This document shows positions 8,328 to 29,006 of a stretch of 29,113 bases of DNA, in pieces. Under the pieces are notes generated by a model. That model worked only from the letters and a program-made list of their open reading frames with translations, was not told the DNA's origin and ran no database searches. Source of the stretch: a virus; IMG/VR virus record IMGVR_UViG_3300031758_000420, positions 1 to 29,113 of that record, one strand, 5' to 3'. The stretch's first letter is position 1; every line of letters begins with the position of its first letter. Made by a program: the position numbers and the translations under genes.

Positions 8328-8767
8328 ATTACGAAATACTTAAAAAAGAAATCATGGATGATGAAGGCGTCAAGTACGAAATATACCTAGACCATCTTGG
8401 TTATCCAACTGTCGGTATTGGTCACTTAATTAAACCAGATGACCCTGAATATGGAAAACCTATTGGTACAAAAGTAACCGATAAAAGAGTTACTGAATTA
8501 TTTATCTCCGACGCAGAATGTGCGGTGAAAGACTGTAAAAAGTTATTTGTAAATTTTGATACGATTCCAGAGGATATTCAGCACGTACTAGTAAATATGA
8601 TGTTCAATCTTGGGTACACGCGCTTTTCAAAGTTTAAAAACTTTAAAGCTGCTATTGATGTAAGAAACTGGAAAAAAGCTTCAATAGAAGGAAGAGACTC
8701 GCTCTGGTATAGGCAAGTTCCAAACAGAGCTAAAAGATTAATGGATAGACTACAGAATGAACACTGA
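8324..8767 (+). CDS. endolysin, T4-lysozyme-like glycoside hydrolase family 24, 147 aa
   Basis: Cleaves the N-acetylmuramic acid to N-acetylglucosamine bond of peptidoglycan. The catalytic triad spacing of T4 lysozyme (E11-D20-T26) is reproduced as E14-D23-T29 within DDEGVKYEIYLDHLGYPTVG, followed by GIGHLI. The downstream NMMFNLGYTRFSKFKNF and SLWYRQVPNRAKRL segments are also typical. There is no signal peptide, so export through the holin lesion is expected. Confidence 0.95.
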   Translation: MNYEILKKEIMDDEGVKYEIYLDHLGYPTVGIGHLIKPDDPEYGKPIGTKVTDKRVTELFISDAECAVKDCKKLFVNFDTIPEDIQHVLVNMMFNLGYTRFSKFKNFKAAIDVRNWKKASIEGRDSLWYRQVPNRAKRLMDRLQNEH

Positions 8768-9374
8768 AAGTAAAGTTTACCACAAATACAGAAATAGAAA
8801 ATTTATTATGTGTGCTACTGGGCCTTCGCTAACACCGGAGGTAGTAGAGACTATTCGTAAATATAAAGGAGACCACGTAGTTTTTGGTATAAATGACGCA
8901 TATAGAACTATAGATTTTTTGGACGAGCATTATGCTTGTGACGAAAAATGGTGGGAGTGCTGGGGCGCAGACTTTCGTGAGAAATACCCACATCTATCCT
9001 CTTGGGCTTACGGCAGTAACGCGGCTAAATGGGGTGTGAAAGTTATAAAAGGATTCCACAATACTGGATTCAGTCTTAGACAAGACAAAGTTCATTATGG
9101 GTCAAATTCCGGATATCAAGCTCTAAATATTGCATTTTTAATGGGCGGACGAAAGTTTATTTTAGTTGGCTATAATATGCAAAAAATTAAAGGTAAGAGT
9201 CATTTTTTTGGCGACCATATGCAAATGAGCAATAATAGCCCCTATAATATTTTTGTTCAAAATTATAATAGCATACAAGGCCCTATTAGAGATCTTGTAG
9301 TTAATTGTACAGAAAATTCTGCTTTGAACTGTTTTCGAAAAAGTAATTTAGAAGAGGAATTACAAAGTGATTAA
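8757..9374 (+). CDS. DUF115/sialyltransferase-fold-like protein, 205 aa
   Basis: The N-terminal CATGPSLTPEVV (residues 19-30), followed by VVFGINDAYR (41-50) and an ACD/WW segment, and later GSNSGYQALNIAFLMGG with a FILVGYNM strand, matches phage proteins related to the DUF115 and GT42-type fold, where the G-x-S-L loop binds a nucleotide. A glycosyltransferase or nucleotide-sugar-binding role is inferred. Its 5' end overlaps the endolysin gene by 11 nt, and it opens the AT-rich modification island. Confidence 0.7.
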   Translation: MNTESKVYHKYRNRKFIMCATGPSLTPEVVETIRKYKGDHVVFGINDAYRTIDFLDEHYACDEKWWECWGADFREKYPHLSSWAYGSNAAKWGVKVIKGFHNTGFSLRQDKVHYGSNSGYQALNIAFLMGGRKFILVGYNMQKIKGKSHFFGDHMQMSNNSPYNIFVQNYNSIQGPIRDLVVNCTENSALNCFRKSNLEEELQSD

Positions 9375-9999
9375 AATATTTGTCGGTACTTCCCAAAACG
9401 GGGAAGATGCTGTTGCAGAAAAAACTTTAGAGTATTCTTTAAGAAAACACTCAAGCGAACCACTTGAGGTTATTTTTATGAGAAATAATGATTCTTATAT
9501 GGGGTATTTTAATAACTCTACATGGGCTACACCATTCACCAATCTTCGGTGGACTATACCAGAATATTGTGGATTTACTGGAAGAGCTATCTATATGGAT
9601 GTAGACCAGCTAAATTTAAAAGATATTTCTGAGCTATATAATATTGATTTAAATGGCAAGCCTTTCGCCTCACGCGAAGATCGCCTTTGTGTTATGGTTA
9701 TTGATTGTGCGGCTATGCAATCTCTAGTGCAGCCAGTATCCGTAATTAAAAATACTCCAAACTATGGTACGAGCATTTATTGGGATATTGTTAAGAAAAG
9801 CCATCACTTTGACCCAAGATGGAATTGTCTAGATGGGGAAGATCGACCTATATCAGATATATGGCATCTTCATTTTACTTCCATGCCAACGCAACCCTGG
9901 AAACCGGCATGGTTTCGTGGAATACCAAAACCACATTGGAGAAAAGATTTAGTAGACTTATGGGATATGTATAGAATTGAGGCGTATGCGAATGCTTGA
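9367..9999 (+). CDS. glycosyltransferase-like protein (GT-A, DxD), 210 aa
   Basis: A GTG start at 9367 preceded by GAGG. The protein opens with a KIFVGTSQNGEDAVAEKTL strand-helix typical of GT8-like proteins and carries the metal/nucleotide motif YMDVDQ (D78-x-D80) after FTGRAIYMDVD. The C-terminal region has an H-x-H-F and conserved aromatic residues. Donor and acceptor are unknown. It probably transfers a sugar from a nucleotide donor. It overlaps its neighbours by 8 nt on both sides. Confidence 0.75.
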   Translation: MIKIFVGTSQNGEDAVAEKTLEYSLRKHSSEPLEVIFMRNNDSYMGYFNNSTWATPFTNLRWTIPEYCGFTGRAIYMDVDQLNLKDISELYNIDLNGKPFASREDRLCVMVIDCAAMQSLVQPVSVIKNTPNYGTSIYWDIVKKSHHFDPRWNCLDGEDRPISDIWHLHFTSMPTQPWKPAWFRGIPKPHWRKDLVDLWDMYRIEAYANA

Positions 10000-10699
10000 T
10001 ATCATAACGCCTAGTGGCGATAGGCCACTTCAGTTTTCTTTGTGTGTAGAGTGGATGAAAAAACAAACTTTTACTGGCAAAGTGAACTGGATTATAGCAG
10101 ATGACAGTATAGCTTCTCATTATGAAACTCCAAAAATGCCAGATAATTGGAGCGTAACGCATTTAAAAATTAATAGACTAACTTTACCAACTTTTAGTAC
10201 TCAATCAGATAATATATTGAAAGCATTGGAAAATGTGAAGAATGATAAAATCGTTATGGTAGAAGACGATGATTATTATCATCCAAGTTGGCTAGAAACT
10301 TGTGATAAAAATTTAAACAATTGTGATATTTTTGGCAGGACAAGAGTTATTTTTTATAACATTTCAAATAAAACTTTTTGGGATAAACAGTATAATAATG
10401 GTTTAAACCCAATGTGCCAAACTTCGTTTAAAAGTACGTTAATACCTAAATTTAAAGATATCTGTAGTAAAAATACAGAATTATTAGACCATTTACTTTG
10501 GGGATTAGTAGAAGATAGCAAAAAAATATTTTTAAGTAATAATAAAATAGAGTACGTTATTGGAATAAAAGGATTATCGGGTCGTGGTGGAATGAGTAGA
10601 AAACATACAATGATATTCAATAATCCAGACCCAGACTACTATTATTTAAAAAAATTTATTGGCGAAAATGCTTTAACTAGGTATAAACAATATGCTTAA
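9992..10699 (+). CDS. glycosyltransferase family 2-like protein, 235 aa
   Basis: A GT-A type transferase. The N-terminus MLDIITPSGDRPLQFSLCV matches the start of GT2-like domains, followed by WIIADDS and MVEDDDYYHPSW, where the acidic triplet (residues 92-94) serves as the DxD motif. I chose ATG 9992, 9 nt after a GAGG site, over upstream starts at 9977 and 9986. The substrate is unknown. Part of the overlapping series 8757-17445. Confidence 0.8.
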   Translation: MLDIITPSGDRPLQFSLCVEWMKKQTFTGKVNWIIADDSIASHYETPKMPDNWSVTHLKINRLTLPTFSTQSDNILKALENVKNDKIVMVEDDDYYHPSWLETCDKNLNNCDIFGRTRVIFYNISNKTFWDKQYNNGLNPMCQTSFKSTLIPKFKDICSKNTELLDHLLWGLVEDSKKIFLSNNKIEYVIGIKGLSGRGGMSRKHTMIFNNPDPDYYYLKKFIGENALTRYKQYA

Positions 10700-11303
10700 C
10701 ATAGCTATAATTGGTCACGGCCCTAGCTTATTAAATTCAAATTTAGGTAATAATATAGACTCTTTCGATATAGTTATACGTCAAAAAGCAGTGTCACACT
10801 CTTTGATGACTACTTACCCTGAAGATTTTGGTAAAAAAACTTCTATAATTTGTGGCTCCTACACAATAAAAGAAGCTTTATTTTGGGATTCTAAGGCAGA
10901 TATATGGGTTTTCGCCGATTCTAGGCACGAAAAAATAAATATAAAACCAGACCTAAGATTTACATTATTAAAAGATAAATGTGATTATTGGAATGATTTC
11001 TATAGGTCTTTAAGAACTGAAAACTTTACTAGACATGAAAAAATGACAATTCATCCAACATCTAGTGATGTTGGGCACAACCACATGAGTTGTGGATTGC
11101 ATACCATTATGTACGCTTGCGAAATTCTAAAACCAAAAAAATTAACTTTATTTGGTTTTGATAATGTAAGTTCTGGTACATTTAATTGGTCTTTAACTAG
11201 AGGCCCTACTTGGGGTCAGTATCCTGACCATAGATGGGATATTGAAAAAGAAATGCTGTTGATATTAGTTGATAGATACTCTATAGAATTAGAATTTATA
11301 TAG
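10692..11303 (+). CDS. sialyltransferase-like glycosyltransferase (GT29/GT42-like), 203 aa
   Basis: The N-terminal IIGHGPSLLNSNLG (residues 6-19) followed by DSFDIVIRQKA resembles the large sialyl motif, and MSCGLHTIMYACEILKPKK with LTLFGFDN (132-158) resembles the small sialyl motif region of GT29-type enzymes. If correct, it uses a CMP-activated sugar acid or a related donor. No CMP-sialate pathway gene is visible nearby, so the donor may come from the host or be different. It overlaps the previous gene by 8 nt. Confidence 0.65.
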   Translation: MLNIAIIGHGPSLLNSNLGNNIDSFDIVIRQKAVSHSLMTTYPEDFGKKTSIICGSYTIKEALFWDSKADIWVFADSRHEKINIKPDLRFTLLKDKCDYWNDFYRSLRTENFTRHEKMTIHPTSSDVGHNHMSCGLHTIMYACEILKPKKLTLFGFDNVSSGTFNWSLTRGPTWGQYPDHRWDIEKEMLLILVDRYSIELEFI

Positions 11304-11312
11304 GATTAAATA

Positions 11313-11876
11313 ATGAAACTTGTAGAATTTATAGAATCAGTTGAATATGAAAAAACTGATAAGTATTATTTAGGACTTATACATGAAGTTTATGAAATTA
11401 TTTTTACTGAAAGTTTGAGGGATAGTACTTTAAATTTACTAGAAATAGGTATAAAAGATGGTTTATCGCTTTTATTGTGGAAAGATTATTTTTTAAATGC
11501 AACAATAACTGGGATTGATATAAAAGAATGTTTATCTTTAAATAAAGAAGAAAGAATTATACAATTAATAGAAGATGCATATACTATAAATACAGTTAAA
11601 ACTTTACCAAGTAACTTTGATATTATAATTGATGATGGGCCACATACCCTGGAGTCAATGATATTTTTTTTAACACATTACCCAAATTTATGCCGCAAGG
11701 GTGGATTAGTTATATTAGAAGATATATTATATGCTGATTGGATGCCGACTTTATTAAGTATAGCAAAAACCCACGGAACAGTTAAGCATAAAAATATCAA
11801 AAATTTAATGAGATCTGATAGGCTACAGAGAAAGTGGAAGGACAGGGATTACTTTACTATTGTACTAGAGGTTTAA
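11313..11876 (+). CDS. SAM-dependent methyltransferase (class I), 187 aa
   Basis: The glycine-rich SAM loop LLEIGIKDGLSLLLW (residues 42-56) and the acidic strand TGIDI (66-70) are followed by FDIIIDDGPHTLESM (102-116) and GGLVILEDI. This layout is shared with sugar and macrolide O-methyltransferases such as the MycE/TylF-type group. It probably methylates a sugar or cyclitol hydroxyl made or transferred by the surrounding enzymes. A short 9-nt gap precedes it and its stop is adjacent to the next start. Confidence 0.8.
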   Translation: MKLVEFIESVEYEKTDKYYLGLIHEVYEIIFTESLRDSTLNLLEIGIKDGLSLLLWKDYFLNATITGIDIKECLSLNKEERIIQLIEDAYTINTVKTLPSNFDIIIDDGPHTLESMIFFLTHYPNLCRKGGLVILEDILYADWMPTLLSIAKTHGTVKHKNIKNLMRSDRLQRKWKDRDYFTIVLEV

Positions 11877-12539
11877 ATGAAAGTTTTTATTGGGTGGGAT
11901 TCTCGAGAAGAGATAGCGTATGAGGTTTGTAAAAAATCTATTAAGCTGCATAATGATTTTATAGAAGTGTACCCGATTAAACAACAATACCTACGGGAGC
12001 TAGGAATATATAGAAGAGAAGAAGACCCGCTAGCTTCAACAGAATTTACACTAACTAGATTTTTAGTTCCATATTTAAGCGACTACTCTGGAATATCAGT
12101 ATTTATGGACTGCGACATGTTAGTACAAACAAATATTATGGGCGTTTTACAAGAAATTATATACAAGGGGGACCCTGTAAGTTGTGTGCAGCATGAAAGT
12201 TATGTACCCAAATCCTCTATAAAGATGGACGGAAGAGTACAGCATACATATCCAAAAAAGAACTGGTCTTCTTTCATGGTTTTTGATTGTGGGCACCCTG
12301 AGGTAAAAAAGAATCTAACTTTGAGTAAAGTTAATTTATACTCCCCACAGTATCTTCATAGAATGGAGTGGGCTTCTTCTATAGGAAAACTACCCCACAC
12401 TTGGAATTATTTAGTTGGCTATTACAACGATATAAAGCATCCTAATGTTTTACATTATACAGATGGCGGCCCCTGGTTTGACGAATACTCAAATTGTGAA
12501 TTTTCAAATAACTGGTTAGAAGTAGCAAAGCATGTTTAA
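11877..12539 (+). CDS. GT8-like glycosyltransferase, 220 aa
   Basis: Begins MKVFIGWDSREEIAYEVCKKS, the characteristic opening of phage and bacterial GT8-like proteins, and carries the DxD motif as FMDCDM (D78-x-D80). A T-x-TRF segment precedes the motif, and a W-x-YLVGYYN with HYTDGGPW near the C-terminus completes the pattern. It likely transfers a hexose or related sugar from a nucleotide donor. The acceptor is unknown. Confidence 0.85.
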   Translation: MKVFIGWDSREEIAYEVCKKSIKLHNDFIEVYPIKQQYLRELGIYRREEDPLASTEFTLTRFLVPYLSDYSGISVFMDCDMLVQTNIMGVLQEIIYKGDPVSCVQHESYVPKSSIKMDGRVQHTYPKKNWSSFMVFDCGHPEVKKNLTLSKVNLYSPQYLHRMEWASSIGKLPHTWNYLVGYYNDIKHPNVLHYTDGGPWFDEYSNCEFSNNWLEVAKHV

Positions 12540-13251
12540 TATATATACAACATTCTCACCCGCTGACTATAGATTATACGGCAGTAGGTTTATAGATACT
12601 TTTTTACAGTATTGGCCAGAAGATATAAAATTGTACATATACTATGAGGGAACTCCAGAGATATTAAATGACAGAATAGTATGGGTGGATTTTAACAGAG
12701 AATGTCAAGAGCAAATTGAGTTTGTAAGAAGAGGTCTGTCAATTAAGCAAGACTCTTTTTATAGAGGGGCTGCAAGATTTTCATATAAAGCGTTCACTAT
12801 AATAAACCACTTAGAGAAAAATATAGATAGATACAATATATGGTTGGATGCTGATTGTATAACTGTTAAACCAATAAATTTAGAATGGTTAAATACTTTA
12901 AAATCTGGGGCTTCTTGTGTATCTGTACTAATGAGAAATACTCGTGCTATTGAGTCAGGATTTATATTGACAGACAATAATCACCTAGAGTATAATACGC
13001 TTTTGCATAATTATGCTAATATTTATAGAAGCGACGAAATTTATAAATTACCAGAGTGGCATGATGGCTACATATTAACTTATGTAATAAAAAGATTTAA
13101 AATACCTTATTTCGATTTATCCCCAAATAATGAGTATAGGGAAATCCACCCTTTTTCCGCTGGCGTTCTCGGTGAATATTTAGACCATTTAAAAGGCCCA
13201 AGAAAAGCAGACGCGGGCTCTAGAGAAAGAAACTATTTTTGGGGGAATTAA
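12532..13251 (+). CDS. glycosyltransferase-like protein (DxD), 239 aa
   Basis: Starts with a strand-helix MFNIYTTFSPADYRLYGSRF and a SYKAF helix before the DxD motif WLDADC (D106-x-D108). It then has a conserved ESGFILTDNNH and a long C-terminal part with EWHDGYIL and an HPFSAGVLGEYLDH. The last motifs, ending in GPRKADAGSRE, resemble a family seen in marine phages and Pelagibacter loci. Function as a GT is inferred from fold motifs. It overlaps the preceding gene by 8 nt. Confidence 0.75.
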   Translation: MFNIYTTFSPADYRLYGSRFIDTFLQYWPEDIKLYIYYEGTPEILNDRIVWVDFNRECQEQIEFVRRGLSIKQDSFYRGAARFSYKAFTIINHLEKNIDRYNIWLDADCITVKPINLEWLNTLKSGASCVSVLMRNTRAIESGFILTDNNHLEYNTLLHNYANIYRSDEIYKLPEWHDGYILTYVIKRFKIPYFDLSPNNEYREIHPFSAGVLGEYLDHLKGPRKADAGSRERNYFWGN

Positions 13252-13252
13252 A

Positions 13253-13942
13253 ATGTCAAGAAACGCAATAGTACAATTTCATATTAACCCAAGTTTATAT
13301 AAAAAAGGTAATAAAACTAGTGTACTAGATAAAACTAATGAAGTTATTTTTAATTATTCAAGTAAGTCTTTTCGAGATTACTGCATAAAATATGATTTAG
13401 ACTATATACTTATAACTGAGCCTAAAGTAAATTATATTCATCCTACTTGGGAAAGATTAGATTTATGGATAAATAAAGACCATTGGTTTGATAAGTATGA
13501 TAGTATATGCTATGTGGATACAGATGTATTTGCGCTGCCAAAAGCCGATAACATATTTTCTTTTAGTAAAGATAATAAATTTTGTAGAGTACCCTACTGG
13601 AAGGCAAACAAAGAGTTAGATCAAGATAGTATTTTTATAGGTACTAGAATAAAAGAATCCGGATTTCAGGCGGGGGTTATTTTATTAAATTCATACGTTA
13701 TAGAAAAAACTATAGATGACGTACTGGACTATAAAAATATAAAATTTACTGATGATTCTGTACTATTAAATTATGCCATAGCTAATAGTGATATTGATAT
13801 TTATAATATACCTGAAACATTCAATGTTAAATATACGCCCAACACTAATTTATCCGTAGTTAATTTTTTGCACGCTTTTGGAAAATTTAAAGTAAATCAC
13901 CCAGAAGCATTCTTATCAACTTTAAAAGGAATTTTTAATTAA
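13253..13942 (+). CDS. glycosyltransferase-like protein (DxD), 229 aa
   Basis: A GT-A type protein with the DxD motif CYVDTDVF (D89-x-D91) and a downstream SGFQAGVILLNS segment, the typical second half of GT8-like folds. The sequence is extremely rich in Asn, Ile and Lys, reflecting the AT-rich codon use of this island. It is the last transferase before the four-gene cyclase set, and only 2 nt separate it from the nucleotidyltransferase. Confidence 0.75.
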   Translation: MSRNAIVQFHINPSLYKKGNKTSVLDKTNEVIFNYSSKSFRDYCIKYDLDYILITEPKVNYIHPTWERLDLWINKDHWFDKYDSICYVDTDVFALPKADNIFSFSKDNKFCRVPYWKANKELDQDSIFIGTRIKESGFQAGVILLNSYVIEKTIDDVLDYKNIKFTDDSVLLNYAIANSDIDIYNIPETFNVKYTPNTNLSVVNFLHAFGKFKVNHPEAFLSTLKGIFN

Positions 13943-13944
13943 AT

Positions 13945-14676
13945 ATGAATTTGATACTTTGTATAGCTGGATTAAACACTAGATTTCACGATGTTGGATT
14001 TGATATACCAAAATATCTTTTACCCTGGAATAACACAACTATTATTTCAGAAATTATAACTCAACTCAGTTATGGGTATGATTTTGATGAAATTATAATC
14101 TTAGCAAATAGTAGAGATAAATATTTTAAAAACAATTTATATTCAACACTTGAAAATGTCCCAAATAAACATATTTACTATATTGCGGACACTCTTGGAC
14201 AAGCGCATACGGCAATGGTTGGTGCTAGTCTATTAAAATATAAAAATAAACCTATTGCTATTATGAATGGGGACACTATATTAAAAGGAAGAAATTTTTT
14301 TGATATAGAAAAATTTGCGATTAAAAACGATGCTTATGTTGATGTATTTATCTCAAATAACCAAAAGTATAGTTATGTAAAATCAGACTCTAATGGGTAT
14401 GTTCAACAAATTGTAGAAAAAATACCAATATCTCCTTTTGCTAGTTCTGGACTGTACTGTTTTAAAAGTTCTGAATTTTATATGGAACAGTTTAACGAAA
14501 CTGTAGAAATGTCACAAAACTCAGAGATATATGTGTCAAATATTTTAAGTAATATGATTAGCGCTAAAAAATTTGATATTTACTCTAACGGTTTAGATAA
14601 TAACCATAAAACTATTGTTTTGGGGTCTCCGTATGAATATGGTATAGAATTTGCTAAATTAATGGTTACTACATAA
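13945..14676 (+). CDS. sugar-phosphate nucleotidyltransferase-like protein, 243 aa
   Basis: Predicted to join a (pseudo)sugar phosphate to NTP, giving an NDP-sugar and pyrophosphate. The start reproduces the signature of this family: AGLNTRF (residues 8-14) as the nucleotide loop, PKYLLPW (22-28) with the conserved Lys, TLGQAHTA (83-90) for base recognition, and MNGD (107-110) for metal binding. The second canonical glycine is Asn. A kinase and a cyclase follow immediately, so the substrate is likely a phosphorylated cyclitol (inference). Confidence 0.85.
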   Translation: MNLILCIAGLNTRFHDVGFDIPKYLLPWNNTTIISEIITQLSYGYDFDEIIILANSRDKYFKNNLYSTLENVPNKHIYYIADTLGQAHTAMVGASLLKYKNKPIAIMNGDTILKGRNFFDIEKFAIKNDAYVDVFISNNQKYSYVKSDSNGYVQQIVEKIPISPFASSGLYCFKSSEFYMEQFNETVEMSQNSEIYVSNILSNMISAKKFDIYSNGLDNNHKTIVLGSPYEYGIEFAKLMVTT

Positions 14677-14677
14677 A

Positions 14678-15652
14678 ATGAAAGTAACTAAATTAAAAGG
14701 CGGTTCTTTAAGCTCAACTGTTCTTGTAGAAAGTGACAGCACTAAATTTGTTAGAAAATCTGTAAATACAACAAAAGATAGAGAGTACGGCTTTATACGC
14801 TGGTACTCTCAATTAAAAAAGATGCAAAGATTATCCGAACTGCATAATAGTCTTTTCCCAAAAATTTTAAATGTAGGCTATGAAAATGGCAACGCATTCT
14901 TTGATATGGAGTATCTTTCAGGGTTTACAGATATAAAAACTATTTTTACTGAAAGCAATGTTGAAGATACTCAAATAAAAAAGATTAATGATGCTTTGTG
15001 GAAAGCTTTTGATGCATTACATAGTTATACATATAAGTCTCTACCAAACATTTCTTTCTTGTATTTTATAGAAGAGATAGAGCAAAAAATTTTAGACGCT
15101 AAAAAAATGAGTTCAGATTTCTATAAATTTACTGAGCAAGATTACTACATATTCAACGGCAATAAAATATCTAATTTAGCTAAGTATAAAAGCTCTTTAG
15201 AAAAAATATTTAAAAACCTCAAAATAGACTTAGAAGGTAATATACATGGTAACCCTACATTAGAGAATATAATGTACTCTTTTGATGAAAATAGAGTTGT
15301 GTTTATTGACCCATATGAAGAAAGTGTTGTAGATACAAAATATTTAGATTATTCTATGGTATTGCAGTGTTCTAGAAGTTACTATGGATTTATAAATGAT
15401 AATTCCGTTAGTATAGACTTTCCACACATAAATAAAAACAATAAAAAAATACCTCACCCTTTCATTCATTTTAATACAAGTTTTGAAGAGGAGCTAACTA
15501 AGCGAGTTAAAAATTTAAATATTATTTATATTTTGGAGGCTTCTCAATTTATAAGGATGTTACCATTTAAATGTGCGGCTGGCGAAGTAGAAAAAGCAAA
15601 GTATTTTTATGCGCATGCCAGTAATTTAATAGAAAGGTGTATTAATGAATAA
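14678..15652 (+). CDS. aminoglycoside/choline kinase-like phosphotransferase, 324 aa
   Basis: An APH-fold small-molecule kinase. An N-terminal lobe has the ATP-binding Lys in FVRKSV (K27) and a DMEYLSG hinge (76-82). The catalytic loop is HGNPTLEN (190-197) and the metal-binding Asp is in FIDPYEE (D211). In active members the loop reads H-G-D-x4-N; here the catalytic Asp is replaced by Asn192, confirmed by codon AAC. Either this enzyme is inactive or altered, or another residue acts as base. It lies between the nucleotidyltransferase (1-nt gap) and the cyclase (8-nt overlap), the expected place for a cyclitol kinase. Confidence 0.8.
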   Translation: MKVTKLKGGSLSSTVLVESDSTKFVRKSVNTTKDREYGFIRWYSQLKKMQRLSELHNSLFPKILNVGYENGNAFFDMEYLSGFTDIKTIFTESNVEDTQIKKINDALWKAFDALHSYTYKSLPNISFLYFIEEIEQKILDAKKMSSDFYKFTEQDYYIFNGNKISNLAKYKSSLEKIFKNLKIDLEGNIHGNPTLENIMYSFDENRVVFIDPYEESVVDTKYLDYSMVLQCSRSYYGFINDNSVSIDFPHINKNNKKIPHPFIHFNTSFEEELTKRVKNLNIIYILEASQFIRMLPFKCAAGEVEKAKYFYAHASNLIERCINE

Positions 15653-16787
15653 TATCTTAAACAATTTTAATAACTACAAAAGATCTTGGAACGTAACATC
15701 AGAATTACCTATTAATTTTACAATAAAATATTCTAGCGATATATTTAACCCTATAAACCATGATATACTACAGTATAATGACTCTACTAGAAGAATAGTA
15801 ATTATAGATAAAATAATAAATGATTTGTACGGTGAAAATATATTATACTATTTTTCCTGTTTAAAGATAGATTTAAAATTATGTGTTATTGACTCAAAAG
15901 AAGAAAATAAAAATTGGGAGCACGTAAATAGTGTTTTAAAATTTTTTGAAGATCTATCTCTGTTAAGAAGAGAGCCCATAATAGCAATAGGTGGTGGCGT
16001 ACTATTAGATTTAGTTGGATTTTGTGCCTCAATATACAGAAGGGGCATTCCATATATAAAAGTACCAACTACTTTACTAGCAATCGTGGATGCTTCAGTT
16101 GGGGTTAAAGTTGGAGTTAATCATTTTAATAGAAGAAATAGAATAGGTTCTTATTACCCGCCAATCGCTACTTTTATAGATAAAAAATTTATAAACACCC
16201 AGGATGAGCGAAATATTGTAAATGGCATAGCAGAAATATACAAGTTAGCTTTAATAAAAGATGAGGAGCTATTTTTACTGTTAGAGGACAATTACGCACA
16301 ATTGATACTAGAAAAATTTCAGTATGGCGCAGTACCGGTTAGAGTAATTAATTTAGCGATAACTGGAATGATAAATGAGCTAGCCCCAAATCTTTGGGAG
16401 AAAAAATTAGACAGATGCGTAGATTTTGGGCATTCATTTAGCCCATTAATTGAAATGAAAAATATGATAAATTTATATCATGGCGAAGCTGTAATTTTAG
16501 ATTGCTTATTCAGTTCCTGTATATCTTATAACAGAGGATACATAGATAAAGAACAATTAAGTAGAATATTCATAACAGCTAAAAATTTAAAACTGCCAAC
16601 ATTCCATAAAGATTTTACTAATATTGAACTATTAAAAAATTCTTTAGAAGACACTATGAAACATAGAAATGGCAACCAGTATCTGCCTGTACCAGTAAAT
16701 ATAGGAAACTATACTATACTTAATGACCTTACTCAGCAAGAATTAAAAGAGGCTATAGACACATTTATAGTTTTAAATAATGATTAA
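15645..16787 (+). CDS. sugar-phosphate cyclase, 2-epi-5-epi-valiolone synthase-like, 380 aa
   Basis: A member of the 3-dehydroquinate synthase superfamily, which uses NAD and a divalent metal to cyclise a C7 sugar phosphate. Visible are the NAD loop GGGVLLDLVGF (116-126), RRGIPYIKVPTTLL (132-145), DASVGVKVGVNH (149-160), NRIGSYYPP (165-173), and the metal ligands E197 (NGIAEIYK), H263 (DFGHSF) and H279 (YHGEAV). Dehydroquinate synthases typically read VGGKxxxNH and IGAFxQP at these places. The forms here, GVKVGVNH, RIGSYYPP and DFGHSFSP, are those of sedoheptulose-7-phosphate cyclases such as ValA and AcbC. The predicted product is therefore 2-epi-5-epi-valiolone or a stereoisomer, from host pentose-phosphate sedoheptulose 7-phosphate. 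Overlaps both neighbours by 8 nt. Confidence 0.88.
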   Translation: MNNILNNFNNYKRSWNVTSELPINFTIKYSSDIFNPINHDILQYNDSTRRIVIIDKIINDLYGENILYYFSCLKIDLKLCVIDSKEENKNWEHVNSVLKFFEDLSLLRREPIIAIGGGVLLDLVGFCASIYRRGIPYIKVPTTLLAIVDASVGVKVGVNHFNRRNRIGSYYPPIATFIDKKFINTQDERNIVNGIAEIYKLALIKDEELFLLLEDNYAQLILEKFQYGAVPVRVINLAITGMINELAPNLWEKKLDRCVDFGHSFSPLIEMKNMINLYHGEAVILDCLFSSCISYNRGYIDKEQLSRIFITAKNLKLPTFHKDFTNIELLKNSLEDTMKHRNGNQYLPVPVNIGNYTILNDLTQQELKEAIDTFIVLNND

Positions 16788-17445
16788 AAATATTGTCATA
16801 ACCGGGACTTCAAAAGGTCTAGGAAATTCCTTAGCAAAATACCTTTTAAATAAAGGGCACAAAATATTTGGCATCAGTAAAACTTTGTGCCCAATTGAAC
16901 ACGAAAACTATAGGCATATACAACTAGATATAAGTTCTCCAGAAGTTGATATATTTAAAAATTTCAGCAAAGATTTTAAAATAGATATATTAATAAATAA
17001 TGCCGCTATTTTTTTAATGAAAAAATTCGAAGAGACAAGTTTTAGTGAAATAAATAATATAATAGGAACTAACCTATTAGGATCTATTTACATCACAAAA
17101 TCTTGTATTCCTCATATGAATAATGGAGCTAAGATAATATTTGTAAACTCTGTTGCGGGTTTACAGGAATTAGAAAATCAATCTATATATTGTGCGTCAA
17201 AAGCTGGTTTAACCTCTTTTGCCGGAGTTTTAGGATTGGAGTTAAGAAGTAAAAATATTTCTGTTACTAGTATACATCCAGGGGGTATAAATACTACATT
17301 GTGGTCTGATAAAAATCCTTATCCATGCGGAGATGTTTCGGAGGCACTATCAACAGATGACATTTGTAACTTAGTGGATCTTATACTATATTCAAAGGCA
17401 GTGTATAAAAATATAAAATTATTTCCATCAATTGAGTGGCATTAG
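16780..17445 (+). CDS. short-chain dehydrogenase/reductase, 221 aa
   Basis: A classical SDR. The NAD(P) loop is TGTSKGLG (8-15), followed by NNAA (73-76), the catalytic S124, and the Y137-x3-K141 pair in YCASK, then HPGGINT (166-172). The length is slightly short but complete. SDRs in cyclitol pathways reduce or oxidise ring carbonyls; valiolone-type compounds have a ketone, so reduction of the cyclase product is a reasonable guess. It ends the AT-rich operon and is followed directly by a new promoter. Confidence 0.9.
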   Translation: MIKNIVITGTSKGLGNSLAKYLLNKGHKIFGISKTLCPIEHENYRHIQLDISSPEVDIFKNFSKDFKIDILINNAAIFLMKKFEETSFSEINNIIGTNLLGSIYITKSCIPHMNNGAKIIFVNSVAGLQELENQSIYCASKAGLTSFAGVLGLELRSKNISVTSIHPGGINTTLWSDKNPYPCGDVSEALSTDDICNLVDLILYSKAVYKNIKLFPSIEWH

Positions 17446-17448
17446 TTC

Positions 17449-17477
17449 TTGACTTACTTTGCTTAAAGCTGTATAAT
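17449..17477 (+). promoter_or_regulatory. sigma70-type promoter
   Basis: TTGACT (17449-17454), 17-nt spacer, TATAAT (17472-17477), preceded by AGTTC as in several other promoters here. It starts a new transcript just after the modification island, where codon use returns to that of the rest of the window. Confidence 0.88.
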
Positions 17478-20534: not shown

Positions 20535-21452
20535 ATGAAAGATTTTCTAGACCGTGCGGCGAAAGCCTATTACGACGGCAACCCAATTATTAGTGATGAA
20601 GAGTTTGATGCTCTTTCTTCTGCTTTTTCTTATGAAAGTGTGGGCGCAAGCGATGGCGAGTACCCACACCTTTTTCCAATGTATAGCCTTCAGAAAGTAT
20701 TTGAGGGTGAATCATCTCCGGACTATTTTTCCTTCCACGACTTTATTGTAACTCCAAAACTTGATGGAGCTGCTGTAGCACTTGTCTACGAGCAGGGCAT
20801 CTTCGTGCGCGGGCTTACACGAGGCAATGGAAAGAAGGGTAGAAATATTACTTATCTTCTTCGGCATCTTGTTCCGAATATAATCTATACACAGGAAACT
20901 ATTCAGATTACTGGAGAAGTAGTAGCCCCGAAAACTATTCCTAATGCACGAAACTATGCTTCTGGAGCACTCAATCTCAAGTCGATTGATGAGTTTCTCA
21001 CTCGTGATCTTACGTTTATTGCTTACGATGTTCAAAGCAAAGTTACAGATAGTTTTGTAGAGGATATGCGACTTCTTACAGAGTTTGATACTATTCTAGA
21101 TTCAGACTGGGATCTCTTTCCGCACGATGGAAAAGTATTTCGTATTGATAGTAATTCAGTTTTCGAAGAGCTAGGATATACCGCACATCATCCACGTGGT
21201 GCCTTTGCTCTCAAAAGAAAGGCAGAAGGGGTGGTTACAAAACTACTCGATGTAAAGTGGAATGTCGGAAAGTCTGGCGTAGTTGCTCCAGTAGCAATTC
21301 TAGAGCCAGTAGTGGTCGGAGAAGCAACAGTATCAAAAGCTACTCTTCACAATATTCGATTCATTGAAGAGATGGATCTTGAGATTGGGTGTCTAGTTGA
21401 AGTTATTCGATCTGGTGAAATTATTCCCAAGATTGTGAGGAAAGTAAAGTGA
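20535..21452 (+). CDS. ligA: NAD-dependent DNA ligase, N-terminal/catalytic subunit, 305 aa
   Basis: Seals DNA nicks using NAD. It contains the NMN-binding Ia region (AKAYYDGNPIISDEEFDAL, residues 9-27, with YY at 12-13), the adenylated Lys in KLDG (K75), TRGNGKKG (95-102), EGVVTK (231-236) and KWNVGKSG (241-248), then an OB-fold to residue 305. Whole bacterial LigA is about 670 aa. This protein stops after the OB domain; the zinc finger, HhH and BRCT domains are in a separate gene at 22172-22915. T5-like phages have a similar two-subunit ligase. The catalytic residues are intact. Confidence 0.93.
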   Translation: MKDFLDRAAKAYYDGNPIISDEEFDALSSAFSYESVGASDGEYPHLFPMYSLQKVFEGESSPDYFSFHDFIVTPKLDGAAVALVYEQGIFVRGLTRGNGKKGRNITYLLRHLVPNIIYTQETIQITGEVVAPKTIPNARNYASGALNLKSIDEFLTRDLTFIAYDVQSKVTDSFVEDMRLLTEFDTILDSDWDLFPHDGKVFRIDSNSVFEELGYTAHHPRGAFALKRKAEGVVTKLLDVKWNVGKSGVVAPVAILEPVVVGEATVSKATLHNIRFIEEMDLEIGCLVEVIRSGEIIPKIVRKVK

Positions 21453-21733
21453 TTGATGATAACAATATGTTTGGCTATCATGGTGTTCTTGATAAAAAGA
21501 CACACTATGTTCCAGCCATTGGTATGTTTGACCATTTCTGGCTTATTCGTCCAATGACGAGAAAAAAGCTACTAGAAGGTTGGATCTTTACGCTTCAAAC
21601 AATTCTGGATAACGAAGAGTTTGAGCCTGACGAAATTGTAGGAAATGTTCTGATGTTCTCAAACGAAAATGTAAAAGAAGAAAAAGAGAGCGATAACGTC
21701 GTACAATTTCCAAATATTCCACGTTCACTGTGA
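21449..21733 (+). CDS. hypothetical protein inserted between ligase genes, 94 aa
   Basis: A GTG start at 21449 with GAGG 8 nt upstream; it overlaps the ligase stop by 4 nt. The protein starts with hydrophobic and aromatic segments (FGYHGVLDKKTHYVPAIG, then MFDHFWLIRP) and ends in an acidic, low-complexity tail. No family is recognised. It is coupled to both neighbours, so the interval between the ligase halves is a translated operon and not an intron. Confidence 0.65.
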   Translation: MIDDNNMFGYHGVLDKKTHYVPAIGMFDHFWLIRPMTRKKLLEGWIFTLQTILDNEEFEPDEIVGNVLMFSNENVKEEKESDNVVQFPNIPRSL

Positions 21734-22092
21734 GCGGAATTTACAACGAAACATTCTTTAAAAATCATCCAGCAGAGGCCGAAGGCCCTGGGGTGTTGTA
21801 CTGCGTTATTCTTGTAAATAAGAAAACTCTAGAACGAGAATGTATTAAGATTGGTATCGCTTACGGAAAGAACTGGAAAGACGTTCTTCGCCGCAGTCGC
21901 GGCTTCACCGGGTATGAAGTACGAATACAAAAAGTAGTTCATAGCACGCTATACAAATGCTGGAAACTAGAACAGCAACTTCACGAACAGTTCAAACATC
22001 TTAAATTTAGTCCAACTTCGAAATTTGGTGGGTATACAGAGTGTTTTCAAATAGACAACGATATAATTCGGTCTGTACCAAAGAACATTTGA
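21730..22092 (+). CDS. GIY-YIG-like nuclease (T5orf172/MUG113 type), 120 aa
   Basis: The order of residues fits the compact GIY-YIG fold of the T5orf172 group: GVLYCVILV (21-29), KIGIAYG (40-46), an Arg-rich helix (R54, R55, R57), a strand with GYEVRI (61-66), then a helix with the catalytic Glu (KLEQQLHEQF, E81) and the ending GGYTECF (100-106). It may nick or cleave DNA, so it could be a homing-type mobile gene or part of repair. A GTG start at 21730 overlaps the previous stop. Confidence 0.7.
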   Translation: MSGIYNETFFKNHPAEAEGPGVLYCVILVNKKTLERECIKIGIAYGKNWKDVLRRSRGFTGYEVRIQKVVHSTLYKCWKLEQQLHEQFKHLKFSPTSKFGGYTECFQIDNDIIRSVPKNI

Positions 22093-22114
22093 CACACCTA
22101 CAAAAAAATAGTTC

Positions 22115-22143
22115 TTGACTTTTAAGGTGAAATCCTCTATAAT
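22115..22143 (+). promoter_or_regulatory. sigma70-type promoter of the ligase C-terminal gene
   Basis: TTGACT (22115-22120), 17-nt spacer, TATAAT (22138-22143), preceded by AGTTC. It lies in the 79-nt gap between the GIY-YIG-like gene and the second ligase gene, giving that gene its own start of transcription. Confidence 0.9.
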
Positions 22144-22171
22144 ACTTCTTCAATAGATTGAGAAAGCGGTT

Positions 22172-22915
22172 GTGAAAATAATTGTTCCGACTAATTGCCC
22201 AAGCTGCGAGTCCCCGCTCGTATGGAAAAATGACCAGCTCTTTTGCCTTAACGCAGATTGCAGCAGCAGGGCTTTTAAGCGAGTACAGCATTTTGCACAT
22301 ACTCTCAAGATTAAGGGTCTCGGCCCCGCCGCAATTCAAAAGCTCGACATTCAGGACATTTACGATATTTATCATATGTCTATTGAGCAAATTGCAGAAG
22401 GTCTACAATCCGAAAAGCTAGCAGCAAAACTTGTAGAAGAGATTGAAAAATCAAAGTCTGCTTCTCTTGACTTGCTTCTTCCCGCTTTTTCTATTCCTCT
22501 GATCGGTAAGACTGCCGCAGAAAAACTCTGCAAGGTTATTAACCACATTTCCGAGCTGACTTCAGAGGTCTGTGAAAAAGCAGGTATTGGCCCAAAAGCC
22601 ACAGAAAATCTATTGAATTGGTTTGAAGAAGAGTTTGTTGGTATCTCTTCTCTTCCATTCACTTTTAGTACCGCTGGCATTGAAAGTAAACCAACTAAAG
22701 GTATTGTTTGTATTACAGGTAAACTGAAATCGTTCAAAACCAAGGCAGAAGCCGAAAAGTTCCTACTAGATTTGGGATATATTGTAAAATCTTCTATAAC
22801 AAAAGAAGTCACAATTCTAGTGAACGAAAGCGGTGTTGAATCTGCTAAAACCCAAAAAGCTAGAGACAATGGTGTCTCTATTATTACTAACCTCTCTGAT
22901 CTTACAGGTGAATAA
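22172..22915 (+). CDS. ligB: NAD-dependent DNA ligase, C-terminal subunit (zinc finger, HhH, BRCT), 247 aa
   Basis: Completes the ligase by providing the DNA-binding domains. A four-cysteine zinc finger is visible (C9, C12, C25, C30) within CPSCESPLVWKN and FCLNADC. It is followed by LKIKGLGPAAIQKL and a set of helix-hairpin-helix units (about 45-165, including SIPLIGKTAAEKL and AGIGPKATENLL), and a BRCT domain from about 173 (GIVCITGKLKSFKTKAEAEK). There is no adenylation domain, so it must act with the product of 20535-21452. A GTG start at 22172 is used. The symbol follows the T5-style subunit naming. Confidence 0.9.
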   Translation: MKIIVPTNCPSCESPLVWKNDQLFCLNADCSSRAFKRVQHFAHTLKIKGLGPAAIQKLDIQDIYDIYHMSIEQIAEGLQSEKLAAKLVEEIEKSKSASLDLLLPAFSIPLIGKTAAEKLCKVINHISELTSEVCEKAGIGPKATENLLNWFEEEFVGISSLPFTFSTAGIESKPTKGIVCITGKLKSFKTKAEAEKFLLDLGYIVKSSITKEVTILVNESGVESAKTQKARDNGVSIITNLSDLTGE

Positions 22916-25907: not shown

Positions 25908-25992
25908 GCCTCGATGGCGGAATAGGTAGACGCTACGGACTTAAAATCCGTTTCCTTCGGGAGTGCCAGTTCGATTCTGGTTCGAGGTACCA
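25908..25992 (+). tRNA. tRNA-Leu(TAA)
   Basis: A plus-strand cloverleaf. The anticodon stem ACGGA/TCCGT encloses CTTAAAA (anticodon TAA), with the long variable arm TTCCTTCGGGAG, a GTTCGATTC T-loop and encoded CCA. It reads TTA/TTG, the preferred leucine codons in the AT-rich genes of this window. It lies 7 nt after the primase. Confidence 0.94.
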
Positions 25993-25996
25993 AACT

Positions 25997-26164
25997 ATGA
26001 AAGAATGTGGAAGTCAAAAAGTTGAGCGAGTAGTACATAATGGAGTTAAAGCATATAGAGTTACTGAAGTTATAGGTTCTTATAACGGTCAAACTTTTAT
26101 GGCTACAACTTTTTATACTCGCAAAAACCCAACATTTGATTATATGGCTGAAGATGTGTTGTGA
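25997..26164 (+). CDS. small hypothetical protein, 55 aa
   Basis: Starts 5 nt after the tRNA. A beta-rich sequence with KVERVVHNGVKAYRVTEVIG and an ATTFYTRKNPTFDY end. The stop overlaps the next GTG start by 4 nt. No family is recognised, and a weak ribosome-binding site lowers confidence. Confidence 0.5.
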   Translation: MKECGSQKVERVVHNGVKAYRVTEVIGSYNGQTFMATTFYTRKNPTFDYMAEDVL

Positions 26165-26406
26165 AAACTCTGAGCGATCTTATACCAGACTCTGTTCTTC
26201 AGAGAGATTATCCTCATGTTGCACAAAATTTAGTAGATTTTTGGGGTACGTCATACTTTAATGACTATATAGACCAATTAGCTACTACGAAAAGAAATGA
26301 TAGGAGCGGGTTCTCCTTTGAGGCATTAATGGAAATACAAAAAGTGTTGGAAGCTCACATAGCTAGGTTTCCACACTACAAAAGAATATATACGGCTTGG
26401 TTATGA
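26161..26406 (+). CDS. conserved-looking hypothetical protein, 81 aa
   Basis: A GTG start at 26161. The protein is helical with several aromatic residues (LPD-V-QRDYPHVAQNLVDFWG-like start and HIARFPHYKRIYTAWL at the end). Similar short proteins occur in phages near replication genes, but I cannot name a family. Overlaps both neighbours by 4 nt. Confidence 0.6.
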   Translation: MKTLSDLIPDSVLQRDYPHVAQNLVDFWGTSYFNDYIDQLATTKRNDRSGFSFEALMEIQKVLEAHIARFPHYKRIYTAWL

Positions 26407-26570
26407 GAGAATCTACAATAGAGCAAAAAGAAGACATTTTTTTAGTACGTTTGTATGAGATAGTACTTATAAAGATAGTCACTGCCTCTAGTAAAAATGA
26501 GGCGGAATTTATCAGTAGATGCTGGGACTCAGGTATTTTTTCTAAAGATGAATTTGATTATGGAAATTAG
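26403..26570 (+). CDS. small hypothetical protein, 55 aa
   Basis: ATG 26403 overlaps the previous stop as ATGA. An acidic helix (STIEQKEDIFLV) is followed by a hydrophobic strand region and CWDSGIFSKDEFDYGN at the C-terminus. No family recognised. Its end overlaps the start of the next gene. Confidence 0.45.
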   Translation: MRESTIEQKEDIFLVRLYEIVLIKIVTASSKNEAEFISRCWDSGIFSKDEFDYGN

Positions 26571-27246
26571 TGAGCCAATTGGAATTATACAGATAGGTTT
26601 AGACCATAAATTTAAAATAGCAGAAGAGAACCATGCTATGCTATATAAATTTTTGTCTAATAAATACAATATAAATATATACAATTTTTATAGAGAAGAC
26701 CCTATACCAGGTTGCCCTTTCAATACTAGCGCTACTATACAGTTATATGATTTTTTTAGCTCTGCTGAGAAAACATCTGAAAAAATTATTTTGAAAATAA
26801 GATCGGACGTTTTTTTAACAAAAAGCTCTATTGATATTTTATGCCAAGAGATAGATGCAATAGTTAGTGGTGAAATAGATATTTCATATCTTGGTTTGTA
26901 TTTTTCTACCGAATACGATAAAATATGTGTTAGAAAAGATGTAAAGGAATGTTATAAAGTACCGGATAAAATAGTCATTGCTAGAAAAGATAAATTAATA
27001 GACAACTGGCTTAATACTATTCATAGTGTTGGCAGCAGCACTAGCGGAAATGTAGCCTATCTACAAATAAAAAATACAATTTCTGTAGCAAGAATGGTTA
27101 GTTGTCAAATGTATATAGTTCAAAATAATTTTGATGTAGTAGATAATTGGCAAATATACTATGATTGGTGCAAACGCTATAAAGAAAAGTCTCCAATAGC
27201 GGTTGATTGGGTACTAAATAATTTTGACTTAATAAGAACATTTTAA
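26548..27246 (+). CDS. putative glycosyltransferase-like/surface polysaccharide-type protein, about 232 aa
   Basis: The start is uncertain: ATG 26497, 26548 or 26560 are in frame, and I prefer 26548 because 26497 lies deep in the upstream gene. The first half reads GIIQIGLDHKF, INIYNFYRED and ILKIRSDVFLT, the last resembling the R-x-D segment of the protein at 28155. It has an AT-rich codon use like the 8757-17445 island. A transferase role is inferred by analogy and is weak. Confidence 0.6.
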   Translation: MNLIMEISEPIGIIQIGLDHKFKIAEENHAMLYKFLSNKYNINIYNFYREDPIPGCPFNTSATIQLYDFFSSAEKTSEKIILKIRSDVFLTKSSIDILCQEIDAIVSGEIDISYLGLYFSTEYDKICVRKDVKECYKVPDKIVIARKDKLIDNWLNTIHSVGSSTSGNVAYLQIKNTISVARMVSCQMYIVQNNFDVVDNWQIYYDWCKRYKEKSPIAVDWVLNNFDLIRTF

Positions 27247-27253
27247 TAATCAC

Positions 27254-27330
27254 GGGACTTTAGCTCAGTTGGTTAGAGCAGCCGACTCATAATCGGTAGG
27301 TCGTAGGTTCAAATCCTACAAGTCCCACCA
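27254..27330 (+). tRNA. tRNA-Ile2 or tRNA-Met (anticodon CAT)
   Basis: A plus-strand cloverleaf with anticodon loop CTCATAA and encoded CCA. The anticodon arm CCGACTCATAATCGG and following GGTCG/AGGTTCAAAT resemble the E. coli tRNA-Ile2 pattern more than elongator Met. If so, C34 would be changed to lysidine by host TilS and the tRNA would read AUA, a codon very frequent in the AT-rich genes here. Initiator Met is excluded by the acceptor end. Confidence 0.88.
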
Positions 27331-27344
27331 AATTGGAAATAATA

Positions 27345-28055
27345 ATGCAATTATCTTTAAAAGATTTAGAAGTTTCTGAGGTTACCCAAAATATTTTTGA
27401 CGGGTTTAACACTTTTATCTTAAGCGAGGATAGAAGAGTATTCAATAAACTAATCGCTAGATGTTTAATTTATAATAAAGTTAAAGATATACCCGGCGAC
27501 ATAGTAGAATGTGGTGTGTTTAAAGGAACCGGGTTATATACTTTTTTAAAATTAAAAAATATATTTAATCCTAACTCTTCTAAAAAAGTTATAGGATTTG
27601 ATTTTTTTGATACAGAAAACTTATTGAATTCTATAGTGGACAATAGAGATAAAGAAACTATGGAATTACTTTTTAAGGGAAGAGAATTTTCGCATAATAA
27701 ATCTTTTAAAGATACCATGCAAGATAAACTTTTATCAGATGGTTTCTTAAAATCAGAGTTTGACTTAATAGATGGGGATATATCTATAACTAGCAAAAAG
27801 TTTTCTCAGGATAACCCGGGGATGAAGATATCTTTGCTATATATAGATTTAGACTTGGAGGAACCTACTTATAATACTCTAAATAATTTATGGAATAATA
27901 TAACTAAGGGCGGGATAGTGGTATTTGATGAGTATGGTTTTCATAAATGGTCAGAGTCTAAAGGTGCGGATAGATTTATGAAAGAAAAAAATCTTAATAT
28001 TAAAAATTTAAATTTTGCTTGCCCAACAGCTTACATAGAAAAAATGGAAGTCTAA
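27345..28055 (+). CDS. TylF/macrocin-type O-methyltransferase, 236 aa
   Basis: Predicted SAM-dependent sugar O-methyltransferase. The signature GDIVECGVFKGTG (51-63) is followed by KVIGFDFFD and, later, LLYIDLDLEEPTYNTL and GGIVVFDEYG, the order seen in TylF/MycF enzymes. The paired Asp residues bind the metal that positions the sugar hydroxyls. ATG 27345 is preferred over the upstream TTG. It stands between two tRNA genes and uses AT-rich codons. Confidence 0.88.
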   Translation: MQLSLKDLEVSEVTQNIFDGFNTFILSEDRRVFNKLIARCLIYNKVKDIPGDIVECGVFKGTGLYTFLKLKNIFNPNSSKKVIGFDFFDTENLLNSIVDNRDKETMELLFKGREFSHNKSFKDTMQDKLLSDGFLKSEFDLIDGDISITSKKFSQDNPGMKISLLYIDLDLEEPTYNTLNNLWNNITKGGIVVFDEYGFHKWSESKGADRFMKEKNLNIKNLNFACPTAYIEKMEV

Positions 28056-28065
28056 ACTTTTATAA

Positions 28066-28141
28066 GTTCCGATAGCTCAGAGGATAGAGCAGTATCCTTC
28101 TAAGATACTGGTCGGGGGTTCGAATCCCTCTCGGAACGCCA
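28066..28141 (+). tRNA. tRNA-Arg(TCT)
   Basis: A plus-strand cloverleaf. The anticodon stem GTATC/GATAC encloses CTTCTAA (anticodon TCT, reads AGA), with GGTTCGAATCC in the T-arm and encoded CCA. AGA is the main arginine codon of the AT-rich modules. Confidence 0.94.
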
Positions 28142-28154
28142 GACAGGTGTAAAT

Positions 28155-28919
28155 ATGCTAAAAGAAAGTGAAATAGCTGTTTGTATAAGTGGTCTTGCAA
28201 GAGATGGCTATGAAACTGCACTTAAAAATGTATACAAAGTATTTCCCTACGATACGTTTTACCTGCACTGGGATGGTTATGGTAATTTAAATTTACCAAA
28301 TTGCCTATATGTAAAAGAACCCGAGTATGATTACCATAGTACTCTAGATACAAAAATCAAGCCAGATTGCAAAATATGGGAAGGCGTAAATAGAAAGCCT
28401 AATTTATTGAATAATGATCGTGGTGGAAAAATGTGGTGGAAGCCAAACTACTATAATCATACTAAAGGTGGTTCAAAACAACTATTGGGCCATTACTACT
28501 TAATTAATAGTTTGCCAGAAAAATATAAATTAATTATACGAATTCGTTACGATTTAATTGTATCAACAAAAGTTAATTTCACGCCCTATTTAGAAATGGC
28601 TCAAGACGGCACAACTGTAGGTTTCGCGGGCTCTAGACCTGGTATGTATGGCCCCGAACAAAAATTAACTCCCCATTTTAATTGTAATTGCAATATGTGT
28701 TCTGGTTGGTACTTATGGGATAATATGTATTTCCACCAAAGGGATAAGTTTAAAAACGTAGAAAGTCTACATAAAGAAAAAAATCTTCTTGGGGCTGAAT
28801 GGGGTTTGTACCAAATACTATGTCATCAATGGCAAAATAAAAATTTTTTAAATGTTTGGGGCGGTGCGGGCATTATAAGGTATTGTTCGGCTCCAAAAGA
28901 AGAATGGATAAACTTATAG
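28155..28919 (+). CDS. WavE/capsular polysaccharide-type transferase-like protein, 254 aa
   Basis: Begins SEIAVCISGLARDGYETALKN, the typical start of the WavE-like and related polysaccharide-synthesis proteins. It carries the middle motif LIIRIRYDLIVS (about residues 140-151), whose R-x-R-x-D is a hallmark of that group, and several Trp/Cys-rich segments (CNCNMCSGWYLWDN). It may add a sugar to a surface structure. The stop codon's last base is the first base of the next tRNA. Confidence 0.7.
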   Translation: MLKESEIAVCISGLARDGYETALKNVYKVFPYDTFYLHWDGYGNLNLPNCLYVKEPEYDYHSTLDTKIKPDCKIWEGVNRKPNLLNNDRGGKMWWKPNYYNHTKGGSKQLLGHYYLINSLPEKYKLIIRIRYDLIVSTKVNFTPYLEMAQDGTTVGFAGSRPGMYGPEQKLTPHFNCNCNMCSGWYLWDNMYFHQRDKFKNVESLHKEKNLLGAEWGLYQILCHQWQNKNFLNVWGGAGIIRYCSAPKEEWINL

Positions 28920-29006
28920 GAAAGATGGCAGAGCGGTTTAATGCAACAGTCTTGAAAACTGTCGAAGGGAGACCTTCCGTGAGTTCAAATCTCACTCTTT
29001 CCACCA
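28919..29006 (+). tRNA. tRNA-Ser(TGA)
   Basis: A plus-strand cloverleaf with a serine-type long variable arm (GAAGGGAGACCTTC). The anticodon stem ACAGT/ACTGT encloses CTTGAAA (anticodon TGA, reads TCA), and CCA is encoded. It overlaps the preceding stop by one base. Confidence 0.93.

Follow-up and report, generated by a model that had tools for sequence, protein, structure and literature searches.

A four-gene cassette of uncultured phages that may make a nucleotide-activated C7-cyclitol from host sedoheptulose 7-phosphate

Four adjacent phage genes, encoding a nucleotidyltransferase (NT), a kinase-fold protein (KIN), a sugar-phosphate cyclase (CYC) and a short-chain dehydrogenase/reductase (SDR), probably turn sedoheptulose 7-phosphate of the host into a nucleotide-activated C7-cyclitol, which would then be attached to a surface glycan or a virion protein, a reading to which we give a probability of about 0.6. 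C7-cyclitols are rare natural-product building blocks, found for example in acarbose, validamycin and gadusol. The cassette was analyzed within a stretch of 29,113 nucleotides (the window) from an IMG/VR virus record, and a second IMG/VR record has the region at 100% identity.

Examination of the ORFs confirmed the original prediction of four consecutive genes with these enzyme classes: NT at 13945-14676 (243 aa), KIN at 14678-15652 (324 aa), CYC at 15645-16787 (380 aa) and SDR at 16780-17445 (221 aa), all on the + strand and separated, in this order, by a gap of 1 nt, an overlap of 8 nt and a second overlap of 8 nt. The cassette closes a closely spaced same-strand run (8757-17445), the upstream part of which (8757-13942, + strand) contains, according to ORF spacings and Pfam, GT8, GT2 and GT29-like glycosyltransferase-like genes and a methyltransferase gene, and ends 2 nt before NT. 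A promoter-like site (11/12 match; 17449-17477, + strand) lies directly after SDR, so the cassette may be the end of a transcription unit, but this is a weak indication, since promoter-like sites are only as numerous as chance would give. Elsewhere in the window, an NAD-dependent DNA ligase gene (20535-22915) appears by eye to be split into two ORFs, 20535-21452 and 22172-22915, which a pair of small ORFs separates, and tRNA genes (Leu, Met, Arg, Ser) are interspersed with glycosyltransferase-like and TylF methyltransferase genes at 25908-29006.

The four-gene order recurs in viral contigs far beyond chance. A scan with CYC found 72 loci, 62 of which have NT-KIN-CYC-SDR in one order on one strand, while the other 10 end at a contig edge. 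In a scan with KIN, for which 80 of 114 loci were kept, KIN always adjoins CYC in the 70 newly fetched loci (62 full sets), and by our own count the two scans together cover 94 distinct IMG/VR contigs. Co-occurrence of the four genes in related phages, on which the original prediction depended, is therefore strict in both scans. For every cassette gene and pair with unsaturated dS, dN/dS was 0.04-0.38, indicating that the cassette genes are under purifying selection. The flanking genes vary among lineages: glycosyltransferase neighbours are not common to relatives, and the glycosyltransferase-like and methyltransferase genes upstream of the cassette in the window are not kept with it, except for a weak methyltransferase match. 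A T4-type gp23 capsid gene is present in 8 of 16 large cassette contigs, and the gp23 of the one cassette contig compared with isolates shares 65-67% identity with the capsids of cyanophages and Methylophilales phages. KIN had no match in 50,697 phage records, and CYC had no close homologue there, only AroB-like cyclases of 26-32% identity. The search of cellular sequences for the cassette covered Bacteroidota genomes, plasmids and, beyond these, two narrow peptide patterns; the closest cellular cyclase found in this narrow search, from Prevotella amnii (43% identity), occurs without the cassette, and KIN was found in 0 of 297 Bacteroidota genomes in a search run without a positive control. 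The P. amnii cyclase gene (locus L036, 8001-9131) adjoins a ketoacyl-synthase-like gene, a gene for a TIM-barrel protein and a RibB-like gene, possibly as part of an uncharacterised cyclitol cluster. Transaldolase, which would have touched the supply of sedoheptulose 7-phosphate, was found in 0 of 19 cassette contigs.

The activated cyclitol could alternatively hypermodify phage DNA, in the manner of the arabinosyl-hmC of RB69. DNA modification has to be weighed because RB69, whose hmC DNA carries arabinose, encodes the NT-KIN protein ORF53_52c next to an arabinose 5-phosphate isomerase (PMC6024577); in addition, members of the KIN and NT superfamilies adjoin a thymidylate synthase/pyrimidine hydroxymethylase gene in Tenacibaculum phage PTm1. 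However, a gene for a thymidylate-synthase-type base hydroxymethylase (PF00303) was found neither in the window nor in the 103-172 kb T4-like contigs G001 and G004-G008, the only PF00303 matches among the cassette contigs being those of G003 (weak), G011, G314 and G416, and the genes around the cassette resemble glycan genes, with neighbourhoods rich in glycosyltransferases. Since the large T4-like contigs are without such a hydroxymethylase-type gene and the gene surroundings are of the glycan type, a surface or virion glycan is favoured as the acceptor and DNA is unlikely.

A cyclitol, free or phosphorylated, might also be a small-molecule effector inside infected cells, inhibiting host sugar enzymes for instance, with NT serving another pathway. 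Two uncut loci of the KIN scan, L110 and L112, which represent one lineage, keep KIN-CYC-SDR without NT, to which the remainder of both contigs gave no match, and bioactivity is known for free C7-cyclitols of bacteria, streptol among them (PMC8599487). Nevertheless, NT adjoins the other genes in essentially every other uncut locus, which makes such a role quite improbable. Upstream of KIN-CYC-SDR, L110 (138 kb) and L112 (73 kb) carry a nucleotide-sugar epimerase/decarboxylase-like gene and an FAD oxidoreductase-like gene.

The reading as a route to an activated cyclitol depends on CYC, which structural and sequence matches, phylogeny and residues place, as originally predicted, in the sedoheptulose 7-phosphate cyclase branch and with the EEVS type. 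CYC matches the Pfam families DHQ_synthase (9e-37) and DHQS_C (3e-20); its best match by sequence to a solved structure is ValA (4p53, 1.7e-88), compared with 8.8e-61 for Anabaena DDGS and 1e-38 or weaker for DHQS, and ValA is also the best Foldseek match (E 4.2e-36, TM 0.89) of its AlphaFold model (pLDDT 90). In all CYC copies covering the sites, the Zn ligands E197, H263 and H279 are invariant and K155, K200, D122 and N165 are likewise present. The motifs GVKVGVNH, RIGSYYPP and DFGHSFSP, originally read as matching the sedoheptulose 7-phosphate cyclase branch of ValA and AcbC, are all found in CYC; GVKVGVNH does not by itself separate EEVS from DDGS, a separation provided by D260 and H340. 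At these two sites each of the 74 unique phage copies with coverage has D and H, as does ValA (where we take them to be D281 and H360 in native numbering), whereas DDGS has A/T and DHQS has N/S, and at a further fingerprint site all phage copies have F as in ValA where DDGS has W. Two such sites are referred to, but not named, in an eLife 2015 text.

In the tree, the phage copies form one clade (support 100/99) inside the sedoheptulose 7-phosphate cyclase part, with the P. amnii homologue as neighbour at moderate support, and the AU test did not reject a grouping of phage and EEVS reference sequences (p-AU 0.37). Because the phage clade stands alone on a long branch and an affinity with DDGS was not formally rejected (p-AU 0.135), CYC might yield another product from sedoheptulose 7-phosphate, such as 2-epi-valiolone or a desmethyl-4-deoxygadusol-like compound. 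The Ala/Thr and W of DDGS at sites where every phage copy agrees with ValA make this very unlikely; topology by itself is insufficient to exclude a DDGS identity, which only the fingerprint residues exclude. That CYC is a phage 3-dehydroquinate synthase feeding the shikimate pathway is hardly credible: annotation pipelines would label it aroB (NCBIfam equivalog TIGR01357, 5e-64, 216.6 bits), but this score is below the curated cut-off of 305, the constant partner genes are not of the shikimate pathway, and the tree, the AU test (phage and DHQS grouping rejected, p-AU 0.0013) and the substitution of DHQS-specific residues in every copy lead us to reject it, and the clustering with true 3-dehydroquinate synthases that would have overturned the original prediction was not observed. 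From these features we infer the substrate and product of CYC.

The partner proteins fit their presumed roles to different degrees. NT matches Pfam NTP_transferase (PF00483; 2e-14, 54.2 bits versus a cut-off of 21.2), its best solved relative is 4evw (1.6e-26), and G9, R13, P22-K23 and D110 are invariant in its relatives, pointing to a sugar/polyol-phosphate nucleotidyltransferase. SDR matches adh_short (PF00106, 1.7e-36) and has the features of a classical SDR, with the TGxxxGxG motif and the N98-S124-Y137-K141 tetrad conserved in relatives. KIN matches no Pfam family at 1e-3, scoring 16.3 bits against Pfam APH (curated cut-off 23.2). Its AF2 model (pLDDT 94) has a protein-kinase-like fold and matches 5-methylthioribose kinase, APHs and phage G gp311, with a TM of ~0.4 to solved kinases and 0.83 to the predicted structure of gp311, and K27 and E36 are invariant. 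The original description of KIN as small-molecule kinase-like thus agrees with the fold but not with the catalytic HGD, which is replaced in all copies: 71 of 72 unique copies have HGNPTLEN and one has LGN, departing from the Brenner motif HxDxxxxN. The KIN homologues of Legionella, S-SKS1, phage G and RB69 have HGD and IDPRG, whereas cassette copies have GN for GD throughout and D-x-Y for the D-P-R-G stretch. The absence of the Arg and of a HAD partner would fit an unphosphorylated KIN substrate, because the phosphate would already have been lost in the cyclase reaction.

The proposed order of action is CYC, SDR, KIN and NT. Judging by its family and fingerprint, CYC, with NAD+ and Zn2+, would eliminate phosphate and close the ring to form a 2-epi-5-epi-valiolone-type ketone, the C1 ketone of which SDR would reduce. 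KIN would phosphorylate the reduced cyclitol, as its fold and gene partnership suggest, and is the weakest step because of the unexplained Asp-to-Asn change; NT would then form an NDP-cyclitol. Separate transferases, perhaps the adjacent glycosyltransferases as first proposed, would pass the product to a virion protein or to a surface glycan of phage or host, as a pseudo-sugar or a cyclitol phosphate. To call the genes a complete set was too strong, since the cassette has no recognisable counterpart of the ROK 7-kinase, the 2-epimerase, the dehydratase and the phosphatase used by bacteria, and the product is therefore probably a simpler cyclitol than valienol. The absence of a phosphatase is expected if CYC already takes off the phosphate. 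Because no dehydratase was recognised, the NDP-cyclitol would be saturated and, on chemical grounds, would donate a glycosyl group poorly; phosphodiester-type transfer of a cyclitol phosphate, in the manner of CDP-ribitol, is at least as likely as glycosidic transfer. Overall, the cyclase type, the co-occurrence and the parallel in enzyme classes speak for the claim that the phage makes an activated C7-cyclitol for glycosyltransferases, while the Asn for catalytic Asp in KIN, the NT-less L110 and L112, the incomplete set (no dehydratase or epimerase recognised) and the variable glycosyltransferase neighbours speak against it.

Activation of C7-cyclitols is already known, and so is nucleotide-sugar synthesis by phage enzymes; what appears new is the union of the two, together with the obligate four-gene unit and the HGN kinase. 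A search of an open-access library found no paper that connects phages with valiolone, with valienol or with cyclases of sedoheptulose 7-phosphate. More tentatively, and at somewhat less than even odds, uncultured phages, many of them T4-like, make a dedicated NDP-C7-cyclitol with an HGN kinase and use it to decorate virions or host surface glycans, which would be the first C7-cyclitol pathway of viruses. If true, the pseudo-sugar or cyclitol phosphate, expected to withstand ordinary glycosidases, would represent a type of viral decoration not seen before. The strict four-gene conservation in many viruses suggests a pseudo-sugar role in phage biology, either as such a decoration or by serving as a signal in host competition. 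The cassette is also a very small candidate gene set for NDP-cyclitol production, and viral aroB annotations can conceal sedoheptulose 7-phosphate cyclases.

Several known systems share parts of the cassette. RB69 (ORF55c, ORF53_52c, ORF51c) has a phage NT and kinase-fold protein of the same superfamilies near a sugar-making enzyme, but there NT and KIN are one protein, the kinase has HGD, a HAD-like protein is encoded as well, and arabinose takes the place of the cyclitol, with hmC DNA as its acceptor. A Legionella sainthelensi plasmid (L176) carries a bacterial surface-glycan set in which homologues of KIN and NT share one run of genes (KIN-HAD-NT) with WavE LPS transferases; in contrast to the cassette, it has HGD and a HAD phosphatase, and cyclase and SDR are not alongside. 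Phage G has a gp311-HAD-NT set of the same KIN and NT superfamilies. A HAD-type protein thus accompanies an HGD...DPRG kinase in the Legionella, phage G, S-SKS1 and RB69 sets, whereas the cyclitol cassette is without a phosphatase. That related KIN/NT pairs lie next to genes for sugar synthesis and phosphatases in these sets counts in favour of the proposed route. In Synechococcus phage S-SKS1 (L178, 5001-8539), an NT-DHBP-synthase fusion adjoins the HGD kinase-fold protein, the HAD protein and a transaldolase-like gene. The DDGS/gadusol and EboD cyclases belong to the same superfamily as CYC but differ in partner genes and, for DDGS, in fingerprint residues. Finally, the predicted parallel with acarbose and validamycin biosynthesis (AcbC, AcbN, AcbU and AcbR; ValA) holds: both combine a cyclase of the EEVS type with an SDR, a nucleotidyltransferase and a kinase-class protein, in the phage presumably also to make an NDP-cyclitol, the likeness of KIN, NT and SDR being one of enzyme class. 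The phage cassette differs in being viral, in its HGN kinase and in lacking the four additional bacterial enzymes named above. In the acarbose pathway, AcbC, AcbN, AcbU and AcbR lead to GDP-valienol, with AcbU phosphorylating C1 and AcbR making GDP-valienol, such that the activated cyclitol is the allylic valienol (PMC9200736).
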